IMG/VR virus record: IMGVR_UViG_3300046171_000002
Coordinates: 1-37,231 of that record
Origin: a virus
DNA: 37,231 nt
Direction: 5' to 3' (one strand)
Shown here one piece after another: positions 1 through 37,231 of this stretch. A program made the translations under genes and the position numbers. A model generated the notes under the pieces. It did no database searches. It saw only the letters and a program-made list of their open reading frames with translations, and was not told the origin of the DNA. How positions within the stretch are numbered: the stretch's first letter is position 1; the number at the start of each line of letters is the position of its first letter.

Positions 1-210
1 ACTATAGAAGGACACACTCTTTGGCATTCTCAAGTTCCCCTTAAGTAAACTGTTGTAATCTATTGCGCACCTAAGTCTAACCGTTAGGCTCTTTGGTTGT
101 CCCTTAGTCTAACTGTTGTACACTGGGGAAAACCTTAGTCTAACTGTTGTACTAAGGGGGCTAACGATAAGGGTACGGGGGGCCGCTGGCGTCACTGATG
201 ATTATTGTAG
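1..210. repeat. Direct terminal repeat, left copy
   Basis: These 210 bases are repeated exactly at the far end (37022-37231). This is what is seen when a linear phage genome has direct terminal repeats, or when a circular assembly is written with an overlap. The segment is non-coding and contains the phased repeats described separately. It lies between the leftward early genes and the rightward packaging genes, which suits a terminal or packaging region. The sequence alone does not say whether the physical virion end is here. Confidence 0.9.
39..157 (+). repeat. Four helically phased direct repeats (iteron-like)
   Basis: Four copies of a roughly 20-base unit, best form CCTTAGTCTAACTGTTGTAC, lie at about 39-58, 70-89, 102-121 and 133-152. 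Copies three and four are identical; the first two are degenerate. The shared AAC falls at 48, 79, 111 and 142, giving spacings of 31, 32 and 31 bases, close to three turns of B-DNA. Copy four is flanked by perfect 7-base arms (CCTTAGT at 133-139, ACTAAGG at 151-157) and copy two by 5-base arms. A protein-binding array such as a replication origin, packaging site or transcription control region is inferred; none is proven. The array is repeated in the right terminal copy (37060-37178). Confidence 0.8.
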
Positions 211-355
211 TAGGCACTCCAGTACTCAAAAGTAGAAATTAGAAAACTACAGTAAAATAATAAAAAAGTAAGTATTCACTAACTTATGTAACCTCTTGAA
301 TACACAAGAGAAATTAAAACTTTGACCCAGTCTAAAAAATAACAGTAAAAAGTAC
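211..355. other. AT-rich non-coding leader region
   Basis: Together with 1-210 this makes a 421-base stretch without a supportable gene. It is strongly AT-rich, with repeated ACAGTAAAA at about 250 and 342, and a small perfect inverted repeat at 293-310 (CTCTTG, six-base loop, CAAGAG). The hairpin has no following T-run, so an operator is as likely as a terminator. The region ends in the strong promoter at 356-384. Confidence 0.6.
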
Positions 356-384
356 TTGACAAATGCTTAAAAATATGCTATAAT
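356..384 (+). promoter_or_regulatory. Consensus sigma70-type promoter, rightward block
   Basis: TTGACA at 356-361 and TATAAT at 379-384 are both perfect hexamers separated by exactly 17 bases. TG precedes the -10 by one base (extended -10, TGCTATAAT). The leader ends in AAGGTAAATACATT directly before the ATG at 422. A near-identical promoter and leader recur at 8796-8875. The perfect match implies that host RNA polymerase transcribes the packaging and structural genes. Confidence 0.9.
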
Positions 385-421
385 AAATAGGTATTCTTAG
401 ATAGCTTAAGGTAAATACATT

Positions 422-844
422 ATGGATAATCAAGATGATCCTCCTAAAAGGAAAAGAGGTAGACCTAGGAAAGATGAGGTAGTTAAGAAGACTAGTGGCT
501 CTAGAGGTAAGGTAGGTAGACCTAAAGGGGATGCTTCAATTATCAATGAGTATAAAGCTAGGATGTTAGCTAGTCCTAAGTCTCGTAGAGTACTAGATAG
601 TATATTTGATGCAGCACTTAATGATGACCATAAGAATCAAGCTGCTGCTTGGAAGCTAGTAATGGATCGTATGTTACCCTTAAGCTACTTTGAGAAGGAT
701 AGTGCTGGAGGTAGATCAGCGGTATCCATAACAATCTCAGGTATAGGTGGAGGCGCTGTAGAGACAGATGTTACACCTAACCAAGAACCTCAGATGAGTG
801 ATAACTCATTTATTGAAGGAGACTATACAAACAATGACGTTTAA
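422..844 (+). CDS. Probable terminase small subunit
   Basis: A 140-residue protein that begins with an Arg/Lys-rich segment containing two AT-hook-like GRP motifs (around residues 13-16 and 32-34), followed by a helical acidic middle (residues 50-85) and a Gly- and acid-rich tail. It is the first gene after the strong promoter and lies three genes upstream of the large terminase. Position, size and DNA-binding character suit a small terminase subunit, which recognises the genome end and loads the motor. No motif proves it; a DNA-binding regulator is the alternative. An AAGG ribosome site lies 10 bases before the ATG. Confidence 0.6.
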   Translation: MDNQDDPPKRKRGRPRKDEVVKKTSGSRGKVGRPKGDASIINEYKARMLASPKSRRVLDSIFDAALNDDHKNQAAAWKLVMDRMLPLSYFEKDSAGGRSAVSITISGIGGGAVETDVTPNQEPQMSDNSFIEGDYTNNDV

Positions 845-1187: not shown

Positions 1188-1330
1188 TGAACACTAACAA
1201 AGAATACCTAAAGACCTTAGCACAACAAGAAGATCTAAACTGGGACGGTGATCCTGATTTAGATGTTGAGTATGAATGTGAGGAAGAAAAAGATTTAGAC
1301 GAGTACGTAGTCAAGTACTTCCATGACTGA
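1187..1330 (+). CDS. Small acidic hypothetical protein
   Basis: A 47-residue reading frame with a GTG start overlapping the endolysin stop codon, running into the start of the large terminase (overlap 8 bases). The product is very acidic, with Asp and Glu clusters in its second half, and it resembles nothing I can name. It is supported by filling the gap exactly between two coupled genes; there is no domain evidence. Confidence 0.5.
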   Translation: MNTNKEYLKTLAQQEDLNWDGDPDLDVEYECEEEKDLDEYVVKYFHD

Positions 1331-2573
1331 ACTAAACATACAACTACTTGATTGGCAGAAGAAGGTCTGGGCTGACAGTACCAGATTTAAGATTGTAGCT
1401 GCTGGTAGACGTACAGGTAAGTCCAGACTAGCAGCATGGATGTTGATTGTAAATGCTCTACAGGCAGACAAAGGCCATGTGTTCTATGTAGCTCCAACAC
1501 AGGGACAGGCCAGAGACATCATGTGGCAAACACTATTGGAGCTGGCGCACCCTGTTGTAACTAACGCACACATAAACAATCTACAGATTAAGCTGGTCAA
1601 CGGTGCAACTATCAGCCTCAAGGGTGCTGACAGGCCAGAGACTATGCGTGGTGTGTCACTAAAGTTCCTAGTGATGGACGAGTACGCTGACATGAAGCCA
1701 GAGGTGTTTGAGCAGATCCTTAGACCTGCCTTGGCTGACCAAAAAGGTGGTGCATTGTTCATTGGTACACCTATGGGTCGTAACCACTTCTATGACCTGT
1801 ACAAGTACGCAGAGCTAGAGAACGATGAGTCCTATCAGGCATGGCACTTTACAAGTTACGACAATGAGCTACTAGACCCAGAGGAGATTGACCTAGCTAA
1901 AAAGTCTATGTCATCCTATGCCTTCCGTCAAGAGTTTATGGCATCCTTTGAAGCTAGAGGCTCAGAGATGTTTAAAGAGGACTGGGTTAAGTTTGGTGAG
2001 ACACCAGAGATAGGTGACTACTACATAAGCATTGACTTAGCTGGCTTTGAGGATGTAAGTAAGAAGAGAACTAAAAACTCTAAGCTGGATGAATCAGCTA
2101 TTGCTGTTGTAAAAGTGAATGAAAATGGATGGCACCTAGAGAACATCATACATGGTCGCTGGGACTTAGCGGAGACAGCTAGGAAGATTTTTGAGGCTGT
2201 ACGGGACTACAGACCCATCAGTGTAGGTATTGAAAGAGGTATCTCCAAACAAGCTGTTATGTCTCCCCTAATGGACTTGATGAAGCAACGTGGTAGATTT
2301 TTTGTTGTAGAAGAGCTAACTCACGGCAACAAGAAGAAGACAGATAGAATCATGTGGGCCTTACAGGGTAGATTTGAGAATGGTCAGATTACCTTGGGCA
2401 AGGGTGAATGGAACAGTAGATTCTTAGACCAGTTATTTCAGTTTCCAGATGTACTAACACACGATGACCTTGTGGATGCCTTTGCGTACACAGACCAACT
2501 GGCTAAAGTAGCCTACTCATATGACTTTGAGATTGATGATCTTGAAGTATTAGACGTTGTAACAGGATATTAA
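1323..2573 (+). CDS. terL: Terminase large subunit (packaging ATPase and nuclease)
   Basis: A 416-residue terminase. The N-terminal ATPase shows Walker A AAGRRTGKS (residues 26-34), and Walker B LVMDE with D119 and catalytic E120. The C-terminal RNase H-like nuclease shows an acidic residue in YISIDLAG (D238), GIERG in the middle, and HDDLVDAF near residue 380. Length is typical for podovirus and lambdoid large terminases. It drives genome packaging through the portal encoded at 3026. It overlaps the small upstream gene and is followed after one base by the next ATG, so it sits in a tight operon. Confidence 0.95.
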   Translation: MTELNIQLLDWQKKVWADSTRFKIVAAGRRTGKSRLAAWMLIVNALQADKGHVFYVAPTQGQARDIMWQTLLELAHPVVTNAHINNLQIKLVNGATISLKGADRPETMRGVSLKFLVMDEYADMKPEVFEQILRPALADQKGGALFIGTPMGRNHFYDLYKYAELENDESYQAWHFTSYDNELLDPEEIDLAKKSMSSYAFRQEFMASFEARGSEMFKEDWVKFGETPEIGDYYISIDLAGFEDVSKKRTKNSKLDESAIAVVKVNENGWHLENIIHGRWDLAETARKIFEAVRDYRPISVGIERGISKQAVMSPLMDLMKQRGRFFVVEELTHGNKKKTDRIMWALQGRFENGQITLGKGEWNSRFLDQLFQFPDVLTHDDLVDAFAYTDQLAKVAYSYDFEIDDLEVLDVVTGY

Positions 2574-29399: not shown

Positions 29400-30246
29400 T
29401 AGCCACCTCCGTTAAGTATCTTGGCCCTGTGGAGTACAGGAATGTACGTAGCTTAGGATAACAAGCATGTTTGAAGTGACAGTAGGAGCAGCCCATAGCC
29501 AGCTTCTTGTTACCCGACTTACCATCAGGGACTGTATCATGACACAAGGGTGGAGGCTCTTTAGTTTCCACCATCTGCTTAACGTGTTTAATGCGATCCG
29601 TTATATCTTCCTTGAGAACCTCATAGACAGGAGCCTGTGTATCCTCTAGGTCATACTTCAGATAAGTCAAGTGACCATTAGCTTTGTCCATAGCAAGCCA
29701 ACCTACCTGTGTCTCACCTTCAGACTTAGCGTATCCTTTGATTTGATCTATGTACCCAAAGGGGTCATCAAATGCAAGTGTAGCATCCTTGAACTTCTTG
29801 AAGCCATAAGTGCTGGCAGACTTAACGTCAGTCACTATACCATCAATTTTACAGTCCATGCTACCTGAGATACCTTCTACGGTTGCCTGTGCCTGCTCAT
29901 GTGTCACTGTATGGCCTGCTAGTCTAGCAAACAATAGCAACATCTCCTCAATCAAATGACCGTACATGAACTTCACAAGGGTGTGAGGCTGCATCTTCTC
30001 CTTTGGCCCTACATTGTTGTAGTGGTTCCACAGGAACCTGTCGGTCTTACCAATGTTGGACATGCGTAGCTTACGTGCATCAAACCTACCACGTTGGGTA
30101 AACTCTTTACGCATAAGGTCTTTACATGCTTCACCAAAGTCATCAATGATCTGCTCTGCGTCCACTGCTTTATCAGGTGACTTAAACTTCACAAGATCGT
30201 AGATGTCATCTATTAGGGTGTTAACTGTTTTCATCAAAGTATCCAT
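29371..30246 (-). CDS. PD-(D/E)XK exonuclease, RecB/Cas4 type
   Basis: A 291-residue nuclease. Motifs in order: GHLIEEML (Glu of motif I, about residue 97), GSMDCKIDGIVTDVKSAS (Asp, then D-x-K, about residues 127-144), and QIKGYA (motif with Gln/Tyr). Near the C-terminus a spaced Cys set (CHDT, CSYCHFKHAC, about residues 234-262) looks like the four-Cys Fe-S site of Cas4/AddB-type exonucleases. It sits where T7-like phages encode their gp6 exonuclease. An alternative start lies four residues downstream (MKTVNT). Confidence 0.8.
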   Translation of the reverse strand: MDTLMKTVNTLIDDIYDLVKFKSPDKAVDAEQIIDDFGEACKDLMRKEFTQRGRFDARKLRMSNIGKTDRFLWNHYNNVGPKEKMQPHTLVKFMYGHLIEEMLLLFARLAGHTVTHEQAQATVEGISGSMDCKIDGIVTDVKSASTYGFKKFKDATLAFDDPFGYIDQIKGYAKSEGETQVGWLAMDKANGHLTYLKYDLEDTQAPVYEVLKEDITDRIKHVKQMVETKEPPPLCHDTVPDGKSGNKKLAMGCSYCHFKHACYPKLRTFLYSTGPRYLTEVANEPKVQEIT

Positions 30247-30769
30247 CTAGTATTTCTTTAGCTACTGGTGCAGCAATTACAAACCATTCGTTCTTACTGC
30301 CATGAGTTTTCCTTAGTAGCTCATGTATCTCACTCTCTGCTCTACGTCTGTCCTTAGTGTCATAAGACTTTATCAAGATGTAGTCCCTGTATGGGCTACC
30401 TGTCTGAAACTGCTTTAGCCTGTCCTCTGCGTCCACTGCCATACCTATCTTAACCCAGCTAGGGTAGGCAGGACTGTACAGGATGTACACTTGACCTTCC
30501 TTTGCAGTCTTGTAGTTACTTAAAGACTCAAACGCTGCGTCACCGAAGGACTTGTAGTGTCCAGGTTTGTGTAGAGGATGTGTTTTTGGTACGTGTCTAC
30601 CATTAACGTACATCCTTCTTTTCTCTTGTTCGTGATTTATTTTCTTAAGACAAGGTTTACAAACATAATAACTGTTTTTAACGAAACTTGAATTCCAGTT
30701 TTCTCCAACTGTTAACTCTACTCCACATTTAATACAAGTATTAGTGTGTGTCTGCCCAACTACTTCCAA
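30221..30769 (-). CDS. GIY-YIG (T5orf172/MUG113-like) nuclease with zinc finger
   Basis: A protein with a C-terminal GIY-YIG-type domain: GQVYILYSPAYPSWVKIG, then RLKQFQTGSPY, AESEIHELL and NEWFVI. An N-terminal CxxC pair (CIKCG) and a second (CKPC) suggest a zinc finger. The frame is open back to an ATG at 30910 inside the polymerase gene. I prefer the TTG at 30767-30769 because AGGAGA lies eight bases ahead and the remaining product (182 residues) contains both domains; it still overlaps the polymerase stop by 29 bases. Possibly a free-standing homing endonuclease inserted after the polymerase. Start choice is uncertain. Confidence 0.75.
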   Translation of the reverse strand: MEVVGQTHTNTCIKCGVELTVGENWNSSFVKNSYYVCKPCLKKINHEQEKRRMYVNGRHVPKTHPLHKPGHYKSFGDAAFESLSNYKTAKEGQVYILYSPAYPSWVKIGMAVDAEDRLKQFQTGSPYRDYILIKSYDTKDRRRAESEIHELLRKTHGSKNEWFVIAAPVAKEILDGYFDENS

Positions 30770-31448
30770 CTTGGTACTCTCCTGTGAGTTTGCAGTTGAG
30801 TCCCAGTTCAATTCCTGCTGCTTCCAAGCAGGAGACTGCAAGTCTTCCGTACTTGTCTGCTTGGTCTGCTCTAACTTCTGCTTGTACTTCATCATGGATA
30901 TTCCCCACAAAGTAATAGTCTAAGTTCCATAGTATAGCATACTCCTGTAGTAAACACAAGGCTTTTTTCATTACAATAGCGCCTGCACTTTGAAGCAATG
31001 TGTTCAAGGCTGAATGTTCTGACCTTATGTGTAGCTTCCTACCGTCTAGTCCTTCAATGACTCCTTGGGCTGAGTCTCTTGCAGTCTTGTCTTTAAGAGA
31101 TGCAAATGCTGGGAGATTACGCATAAATCGTTCTCTAAGTTTGCTACCAGCACCTCTGCCTCCTCCTGCCACTGTTCCAAGTTTAGCATCTCCAGCACCG
31201 TACAGGAGTGCGTAGATGAAAGTTTTAGCCTTATCTCTTGATTCAAGTCCTGCAAGGTGTTGGTTAGCTGTGTGGATGTCTCCGTTAATGACTTCATTGG
31301 TGTAGTCCTTATCGTTCATGTAGTGGGCTAACATACGTAGCTCTAGGCCACTAGCGTCAAACCCTACAAGTTTGTAGCCATCTCTAGCAATCCAACACTG
31401 TCGGCATTCCTTGCCATACGGTGAGTAGCCTTGCAGGTACTTGGGCAA
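30741..31448 (-). CDS. DNA polymerase I family, polymerase domain (frame-disrupted)
   Basis: The listed frame opens at a TTG at 31448 with no ribosome site; genuine coding begins about 31430 as a continuation of the gene at 31384-32481. Family A motifs are intact: motif A GFDASGLELR with D31 (counted from the TTG), motif B RDKAKTFIYALLYG (about residues 71-84), motif C NIHDEVQ with D186. The fusion is 579 residues, a common size for marine podovirus polymerases. Removing one base at 31431-31432 joins NLAQVP to AGYSPYGKECR, matching the family spacing (T7: NLAQIPGVRSPYGEQCR). Confidence 0.85.
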   Translation of the reverse strand: MPKYLQGYSPYGKECRQCWIARDGYKLVGFDASGLELRMLAHYMNDKDYTNEVINGDIHTANQHLAGLESRDKAKTFIYALLYGAGDAKLGTVAGGGRGAGSKLRERFMRNLPAFASLKDKTARDSAQGVIEGLDGRKLHIRSEHSALNTLLQSAGAIVMKKALCLLQEYAILWNLDYYFVGNIHDEVQAEVRADQADKYGRLAVSCLEAAGIELGLNCKLTGEYQVGSSWADTH

Positions 31449-32481
31449 GGTTAGGTTTAGAGTGTGTCATCCTACCAGTGACAGCACCATTGGTGTTAAC
31501 ATAGCCATGCACTCTGTCTGTGTCTGGGTTAGCTTCATCTACCCATGACTGCACTTGAGCCACACGCTTTTGTAACATCAGGTACTCAGCTATCAACGCT
31601 GCCTGTGGTATGTCCTTGACAGTAGACAGTACTGCTTCATCTACTATTGGCTGACCTGTAGGTGTTAGCTTGCAAGGCTCCCATCCAAAGTCCATTAGGT
31701 ACTCACCTATCTGCTGTCTTGAGCCAAGGTTAAATGGCTTAAGCATCTTACGCATGAAGGGAGTCCTGTCACCGGACTGTTGTACCTTCTGGTATTCTTC
31801 GTCAGTGAGTCCTACCTTAGACAGGCTGCCGTCCTTCTTGGTCTTTGGCACTACCTGTTTAACGTCCACCCACTTAGGTTTGAATACCTTATGTACTTCA
31901 TCCTCCACAACCAGCTTGCGTTCCTTCAGGGTAGCTAACAAGTCCATAGCATGTCGTATGTCCAATAGCCAGCCATTACGTATCTGCTCTTGAGTTATCC
32001 ACTGCACCTCATGCTCAAGGTCAATGGACTCTGGGCTAAAGTTACGTAGCTCTAGCTTCATCTTGTTGTATGCCTTAGCTGTCACACGGACATCTTGGAT
32101 ACAATAAGCAATCATCTCAGGAGACAGGCATGTCCAGTCACTGTGGTCGCCTTTAGGGAAGCCTAGTATCTCACCCCAGTTAGACAGTCTGTGACCGCCT
32201 TCCCGCTGTGGGTTAGCTAGTCTGGACATAACCAAAGTGTCCTGTACCCTGCTCTTGTCCACTGTGATGTCCCATAGCTTCTCTAACACTGGAATGTCAA
32301 AGCCTATGAGGTTATGGCCTACCACTGGGAAGTTACCTGTGAGAGCCTGTGAGAGACTGTCACGGTCATAGTGCTCCTGTATCTCATCGTCCTGCATAGT
32401 CACAGCTACCCATATGGTATCAGGGTCAAGACCATTAGTCTCTATGTCAAGGAACATAGGCTTATAGCTCATTGACTGCAT
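31384..32481 (-). CDS. DNA polymerase I family, 3'-5' exonuclease and N-terminal part
   Basis: A 365-residue frame with the proofreading exonuclease motifs: LDIET (D12, E14), HNLIGFDIP (about residue 75), and YCIQDVRVT (about residue 130). The end reaches the start of the polymerase domain (NTNGAVTGRMTHSKPNLAQV) and then runs into about 18 foreign residues and a stop. The rest of the polymerase is in the +1 frame. It would copy the phage genome with the primase-helicase encoded directly upstream (20-base overlap). The true start may be three residues later. Confidence 0.9.
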   Translation of the reverse strand: MQSMSYKPMFLDIETNGLDPDTIWVAVTMQDDEIQEHYDRDSLSQALTGNFPVVGHNLIGFDIPVLEKLWDITVDKSRVQDTLVMSRLANPQREGGHRLSNWGEILGFPKGDHSDWTCLSPEMIAYCIQDVRVTAKAYNKMKLELRNFSPESIDLEHEVQWITQEQIRNGWLLDIRHAMDLLATLKERKLVVEDEVHKVFKPKWVDVKQVVPKTKKDGSLSKVGLTDEEYQKVQQSGDRTPFMRKMLKPFNLGSRQQIGEYLMDFGWEPCKLTPTGQPIVDEAVLSTVKDIPQAALIAEYLMLQKRVAQVQSWVDEANPDTDRVHGYVNTNGAVTGRMTHSKPNLAQVPARLLTVWQGMPTVLDC

Positions 32482-35409: not shown

Positions 35410-35616
35410 TTACCTTCTTCCTTGTGGTGATTTTTTCCATTGTGACCGTCTGACTATATATTTAACCTGTCCAAGTGTTATGTCAAGCTCTTTTGCTATG
35501 TTTTGTTGGTTTACACCCTGAAAATATAGCTTCCGCACCCTTGGTTCCAATGGGTTTGCTGTTGGCTGGCGGAACACTTCAAACCTTTTATCCTGTGCCC
35601 TTATTGCTTCAATCAT
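35410..35616 (-). CDS. Small helix-turn-helix protein
   Basis: With the ATG at 35616, which overlaps the upstream stop by four bases (ATGA), the product has 68 residues. PRVRKLYFQGVNQQNIAKEL followed by DITLGQVKYIVRRSQW is a clear helix-turn-helix of the homeodomain-like or sigma region 4 kind, with recognition helix VKYIVRR. It may be a regulator of early genes or host transcription. A longer version from GTG 35643 overlaps the membrane peptide and is less likely. Confidence 0.65.
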   Translation of the reverse strand: MIEAIRAQDKRFEVFRQPTANPLEPRVRKLYFQGVNQQNIAKELDITLGQVKYIVRRSQWKKSPQGRR

Positions 35617-36682: not shown

Positions 36683-36892
36683 CTATGCACGCTTTACAGT
36701 ATATTCACAGTCCAGCATGGAAACAAAGTCTAACCTCATAGGATCTCGGCGTCCATTGTTTGCCAAGTGTTGTTCCATCTTACTTAGTAAGGCTCGGCTA
36801 ACGTCGCTAGCGTTTACTGCTTCCATTTGGCCTTTGCCTGACAGTGTGCCGCATGGAGTGTTGTAGGTGTAGTTGTAAGTCTTTAGCTTCAT
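36683..36892 (-). CDS. First early gene, small hypothetical protein
   Basis: Counting from the ATG at 36892 gives a 69-residue protein beginning KLKTYNYTYNTPCGTLSGKG with a helix near residues 27-45 and a VSMLDCEYTV end. An upstream in-frame ATG 14 residues earlier lacks a better ribosome site. It is the first gene after the candidate leftward promoter and separated from the next by a hairpin. Function unknown. Confidence 0.6.
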   Translation of the reverse strand: MKLKTYNYTYNTPCGTLSGKGQMEAVNASDVSRALLSKMEQHLANNGRRDPMRLDFVSMLDCEYTVKRA

Positions 36893-36972
36893 TGTCTGCC
36901 CTTGTTTGTTGCTGTTGTTGAGTATATTGCCCAAGCACTAACACAAAGACAAGGTTTTTCTTAGAACTTATT

Positions 36973-37021: not shown

Positions 37022-37032
37022 ACTATAGAAGG
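37022..37032 (+). promoter_or_regulatory. SP6-promoter-like core at the terminal repeat edge
   Basis: ACTATAGAAGG, also at bases 1-11, equals the core and start region of the SP6 phage promoter (GACACTATAGAAG). The upstream recognition part (AGGTG in SP6) is not matched; the context is TTATTGGCT. No single-subunit RNA polymerase gene is present, so use as such a promoter is doubtful. Confidence 0.25.
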
Positions 37033-37231
37033 ACACACTCTTTGGCATTCTCAAGTTCCCCTTAAGTAAACTGTTGTAATCTATTGCGCACCTAAGTCTA
37101 ACCGTTAGGCTCTTTGGTTGTCCCTTAGTCTAACTGTTGTACACTGGGGAAAACCTTAGTCTAACTGTTGTACTAAGGGGGCTAACGATAAGGGTACGGG
37201 GGGCCGCTGGCGTCACTGATGATTATTGTAG
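37022..37231. repeat. Direct terminal repeat, right copy
   Basis: Exact second copy of bases 1-210. The base before it (t at 37021) belongs to the leader of the leftward early operon. If the genome is circular or circularly permuted, this copy is the same locus as the left one. Confidence 0.9.

Follow-up and report, generated by a model that had tools for sequence, protein, structure and literature searches.

Which protein reads a row of four related sites inside the terminal repeat of a phage genome, and what does its binding control? This question is raised by the record of an uncultured marine bacteriophage, whose 37,231 bases are referred to here as the window. An earlier note had described four repeats at 39-157, phased at three helical turns and placed between divergent operons within the terminal repeat, with a dyad in copy four and, less fully, in copy two. 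The observation was confirmed. The copies start at positions 39, 70, 102 and 133, at spacings of 31, 32 and 31, and score 15, 15, 20 and 20 of 20 against CCTTAGTCTAACTGTTGTAC; copies 3 and 4 are identical (20/20), with copies 1-2 at 15/20. In 200 dinucleotide-preserving shuffles of the 551-bp intergenic region the best pair of 20-mers never exceeded 17/20, against an observed 20/20, and none of the 200 contained four copies at 15/20 or better. Within the 25-mer, copy 4 forms 10/12 dyad pairs, copies 2 and 3 form 7/12 and copy 1 forms 4/12, while a perfect 11-mer, CTAACCGTTAG, lies inside copy 2.

The array and the genome ends

The array separates two divergent arms. Leftward run the early and replication genes, including DNA polymerase parts, a T7-type primase-helicase, ribonucleotide reductase and nucleases, and rightward a TerS-like gene, endolysin, TerL, portal, capsid and tail. 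The relevant features are:

1..210, left direct terminal repeat, position 1 being the physical DNA end (exact repeat and an adapter-marked end in the relative G013)
39..58, + strand, repeat copy 1, degenerate (15/20)
70..89, + strand, repeat copy 2 (15/20), with the core CTAACCGTTAG
102..121, + strand, repeat copy 3 (20/20)
133..157, + strand, repeat copy 4 with the 25-bp dyad CCTTAGTCTAACTGTTGTACTAAGG (10/12 pairs)
177..182, + strand, G-run CGGGGGG, putative terminal element near the right cut (distance to the boundary in relatives)
220..430, AT-rich stretch of low stability (at 311, the second least stable 120 bp of the genome)
356..384, + strand, late sigma-70 promoter TTGACA-17-TATAAT (12/12 consensus match)
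422..844, + strand, TerS-like gene with an N-terminal AT-hook motif (weak match to PF02178)
1323..2573, + strand, large terminase, TerL (phrog_2, E 4.8e-42)
36683..36934, - strand, first leftward early ORF (ORF scan)
37022..37028, - strand, candidate early -10, TATAGT on the minus strand within the conserved TACTAYA, with its left-repeat counterpart at window 1-6 (fixed distance to copy 1 in relatives)
37022..37231, right (early-end) terminal repeat, 37231 (= 210) being taken as the other physical end (repeat and CGGGGG-to-TAG^ distance)
37060..37178, + strand, second occurrence of the array, in the right terminal repeat

The record has the array twice, since it lies in an exact terminal repeat of 210 bases, window 1-210 being the same as 37022-37231. 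The left end could be placed through the relative G013 (L363/L111, IMGVR_UViG_3300046167_000019), which ends in the complete, untrimmed PacBio SMRTbell adapter of 45 bases (L363 2457-2501). It is joined directly to ...CCTATATAGT, giving a DNA end ^ACTATATAGG whose terminal base is the homologue of window position 1, ^ACTATAGAAGG. Another relative, G016, stops where position 13 would lie; the contigs of most relatives run through the region and are hence uninformative on the ends. A search for the adapter at the right boundary gave no match. The distance from CGGGGG to the TAG^ boundary is 34-36 bases among the 28 matches listed of 65 (122 slots scanned), and a six-base C-run (CCCCCC) lies 27-32 nt from the sequenced ends of the phages Pf-WMP3 and A-4L and 29-34 here. 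Judged by sequence, the record thus represents a linear phage genome bounded by short direct terminal repeats, its right boundary placed by the G-run distance and by comparison with sequenced ends, and the conserved element next to the cut is the G-run rather than the array. The G-run was also considered as the GC-cluster of a DnaA unwinding element; this was dropped, as a terminal element fits better.

Several observations concern the arms themselves. Window 8786-8833 copies the late promoter region (346-393) to 85%, falls in the 120 bp of lowest stability in the genome and is probably a second late promoter. At 30741-32481 (- strand) the DNA polymerase is found as two overlapping ORFs of 365 aa and 235 aa, where the relative L058 has a single ORF of 573 aa, and they adjoin a T5orf172 gene of the GIY-YIG type at 30221-30910; a frameshift, a split gene or a sequence error may account for this arrangement. 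The TerS-like protein carries the AT-hook-like motifs RGRPRK and VGRPKG at its N-terminus, had no matching isolate in the phage collection, and its AlphaFold model was of too low confidence to be used (pLDDT 52). The TerL search returned at least about 600 related stretches. Four metagenome bins contained TerL relatives, in five contigs altogether; the bins belong to different groups and are uninformative for host assignment.

Recurrence and exchange of site arrays

The earlier note had proposed looking for the phased array in related genomes, and there it recurs, conserved and in a single orientation. A pattern search for two or more phased cores retrieved 47 viral contigs. With five exceptions, family genes adjoin the array, and in family contigs that include the TerS-like gene the array lies upstream of it. 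The family total is 42 or 43 depending on L102, a short locus that is family-like by sequence without a gene match. Matches in L121, L123 and L138 were rejected as coding VTP repeats. The unrelated phage L108 (13634-13710) has two copies of GTCTAACTGTTGA, 31 bp apart, upstream of a small gene, which could reflect a shared host regulator or chance.

In 36 distinct relatives, 3-7 copies are found per genome, all in one orientation, and the 118 spacings are mostly 31 (67) or 32 (20), with 29 (14) and others making up the rest. Placement on one face of the DNA at three-turn intervals, as had been described for the copies of the window, fits most spacings, but the 29-bp interval is common and strict phasing is not kept. 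Likewise, loss of the repeats or of their spacing in relatives had been named as evidence that would speak against the array: the repeats persist, while their exact phasing is relaxed. Overlapping sigma-70 promoters were discarded as the cause of the 31-bp period, since the 3' part varies (GTAC, GGGC, AGGC) and the 29-bp spacing breaks the period. The consensus of the site over 37 genomes, CCTWAGTCTAACYGTTR, is asymmetric with a strong left half; its dyad is weak outside the core, and the core itself was imposed by the search pattern. The distance from the first core to the conserved TACTAYA is 45-48 bp in 31 of the 35 genomes measured, and later spacings vary.

Sister phages carry other elements in this slot: DnaA boxes in 27 genomes (3-10 perfect boxes, often 11/12 or 22/23 bp apart), the sigma-54 promoter element TTGGCAYGNNNNTTGCW in 19 genomes, and in a single genome, L287/L080, three Fur boxes at spacings of 31 and 30 bp. 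Among the window-type slots listed, no TTATNCACA box was found, and the window array is not a cluster of DnaA boxes (TTWTNCACA). The density of the window core is 9.3/kb in slots versus 0.11/kb elsewhere in the loci (86-fold), and that of DnaA boxes is 12.4/kb versus 0.04/kb (311-fold); note that genomes of these two kinds were partly gathered by searching for those very patterns, many others coming from the TerL search. Sigma-54 elements reach 6.1/kb in slots versus 0.004/kb elsewhere in the loci (1424-fold). They point toward the early operon in 51 of 53 cases, and their flanks, on which the search imposed nothing, match the full sigma-54 consensus, mrNrYTGGCACGNNNNTTGCWNNw. Fur sites outside the L287/L080 array are few, with a slot density 5-fold over the rest of the loci, and LexA was set aside as a slot motif, having few sites and a 3-fold excess over the rest of the loci. 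None of the named motifs is present in 27 of the 122 slots; other short repeats occur in L294, L332, L057 and L031 (AAACAATC; ATCATGCAGA; ACTTGAGAA; CTCACGCAT).

The reader of the array and its possible role

The earlier note had named two phage proteins as possible binders, and neither candidacy was supported by the comparison. For the TerS-like protein encoded at 422-844, proposed there in connection with terminase recognition, the kind of array does not follow the TerS sequence: L045, with a DnaA array, and L053, with a sigma-54 array, do not differ in the trimmed columns of TerS, and L031 has a TerS and downstream region nearly identical to those of L027, yet an unrelated array. On well-supported branches of the TerS tree, the DnaA label must change at least 10 times and the sigma-54 label at least 8 times. 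Because identical or nearly identical TerS proteins adjoin different kinds of array, TerS probably does not read the array. The helix-turn-helix protein at 35410-35616 fared no better, its gene being absent by similarity from many array-bearing genomes. A similarity search across the early arm, weak evidence in itself, revealed no DNA-binding protein whose presence follows that of the window-type array; only lineage markers emerged, and a phage-encoded reader was set aside. A literature search with the array sequence as a string returned nothing relevant and no known regulator was recognized for CCTWAGTCTAACYGTTR. Literature searches on DnaA-box phage origins and host-regulator sites likewise came back empty. 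By elimination of the phage candidates and by analogy with DnaA and sigma-54, the reader is most likely a host-encoded DNA-binding protein.

We lean, without being fully persuaded, to the view that the array consists of host-protein sites controlling the leftward early promoter. We infer that TACTAYA is this promoter; a sigma-70 consensus search found no -35/-10 pair at the candidate -10. The directly repeated sites of 17-25 bp would be bound by one sequence-specific protein, most likely of the host, within the terminal repeat and just upstream of the promoter. If TACTAYA is the early -10, the site centers would fall near -57, -88, -120 and -151, at intervals of about three helical turns, and cooperative binding would set the activity of a promoter that has no recognizable -35 of its own, either at genome entry or at the concatemer junction. 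The slot is modular, being occupied in sister lineages by DnaA boxes, by sigma-54 elements facing the early operon, or in one case by Fur boxes. We further infer an effect of the array on early transcription, and that this is activation rather than repression is a guess. The position of the array relative to the candidate promoter, fixed in 31/35 genomes, is that expected by sequence of an upstream operator array. Transcription control is favored because of this fixed distance upstream of the candidate -10, the single orientation, and the sister promoter elements that face the early operon. Against it count the 29-bp spacings, the 27/122 motif-free slots and the small number of Fur and LexA sites, and also that DnaA boxes are better known as elements of origins than as activator sites and that an AT-rich stretch lies close to the array.

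A replication origin of the iteron type follows close behind, and the two roles may be combined; we consider it rather unlikely. Here a host or phage initiator would bind the array and open the AT-rich stretch at 220-430, which begins about 60 bp past the array, and the T7-type primase-helicase and a family-A polymerase would load there. The array at 39-157 and this stretch do present the layout of tandem sites, putatively for an initiator, beside an AT-rich region. Iterons beside an AT-rich region are found in lambda and plasmid origins, those of plasmids usually in helical phase (PMC5043065, PMC10797057). In addition, the 120 bp adjacent to the array are the second least stable of the genome, and perfect DnaA boxes fill the slot in sister genomes, but the sigma-54 elements that occupy it in others do not belong to origins. 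Cumulative GC skew reaches its minimum at the slot but is confounded with gene orientation, and the lack of a match to a single-subunit RNA polymerase, which would also fit an origin, carries little weight, as the control of that search was silent. Neither a Rep_3 (PF01051) nor a lambda-O (PF04492) initiator domain was detected in ten family genomes, and the conserved G-run is accounted for by the genome end.

It is improbable that the arrays serve to hold host DNA-binding proteins, either titrating them or shielding the DNA end as a roadblock. Several near-consensus sites for unrelated host proteins near a physical end would suit such a function, but titration needs neither a uniform orientation nor a fixed distance to the early element, and 3-7 sites per genome are few. 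A TerS recognition site for packaging is the least probable of all: the array does lie between two terminal cut sites and upstream of the TerS-like gene, and T7 has CCTAAAG repeats at its end, but the L045/L053 and L031 cases and the G-run as conserved terminal element speak against it.

With early-promoter control as the preferred reading of the array, we propose more hesitantly that the terminal-repeat slot is a modular socket. Lineages would exchange site arrays for host proteins in it – DnaA, sigma-54, possibly Fur and LexA, and the putative reader of CCTWAGTCTAACYGTTR – and so link the onset of phage development or replication to differing host states without a phage-encoded regulator.

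Comparison with known systems

The origins of lambda and of iteron plasmids resemble the window in that repeats, frequently in helical phase, are lined up next to an AT-rich stretch (PMC5043065). They differ in that no cognate initiator was found here (ten genomes, PF01051/PF04492) and that the array lies inside a terminal repeat, near a candidate early promoter. Pf-WMP3 and A-4L (Saffermanviridae) share direct terminal repeats (234-bp and 810-bp, respectively), a run of six C or G some 30 nt from the end and distantly related major capsid proteins, but no repeat array was found in their first 500 bp. Sigma-54 promoters and bacterial DnaA-box clusters provide the elements seen in the slot of sister lineages, whereas the window itself contains neither and its repeat differs in sequence.

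T7 likewise has short direct repeats in and next to its early-end terminal repeat, upstream of early promoters read by the host. Its CCTAAAG 7-mers, however, lie mostly at 13-bp intervals and have an unrelated sequence, whereas the sites described here measure 17-25 bp, lie at 31-32 bp and are exchanged among relatives. To our knowledge, short repeats near phage ends such as those of T7 have no agreed function. The hundreds of relatives constitute a natural experiment in which the slot keeps its position but recognizable host-protein sites take the place of the array. This exchange makes the role of the array directly testable, and it suggests that phages of the lytic type may adjust early expression or replication to the regulators of their hosts by swapping a cis element alone.
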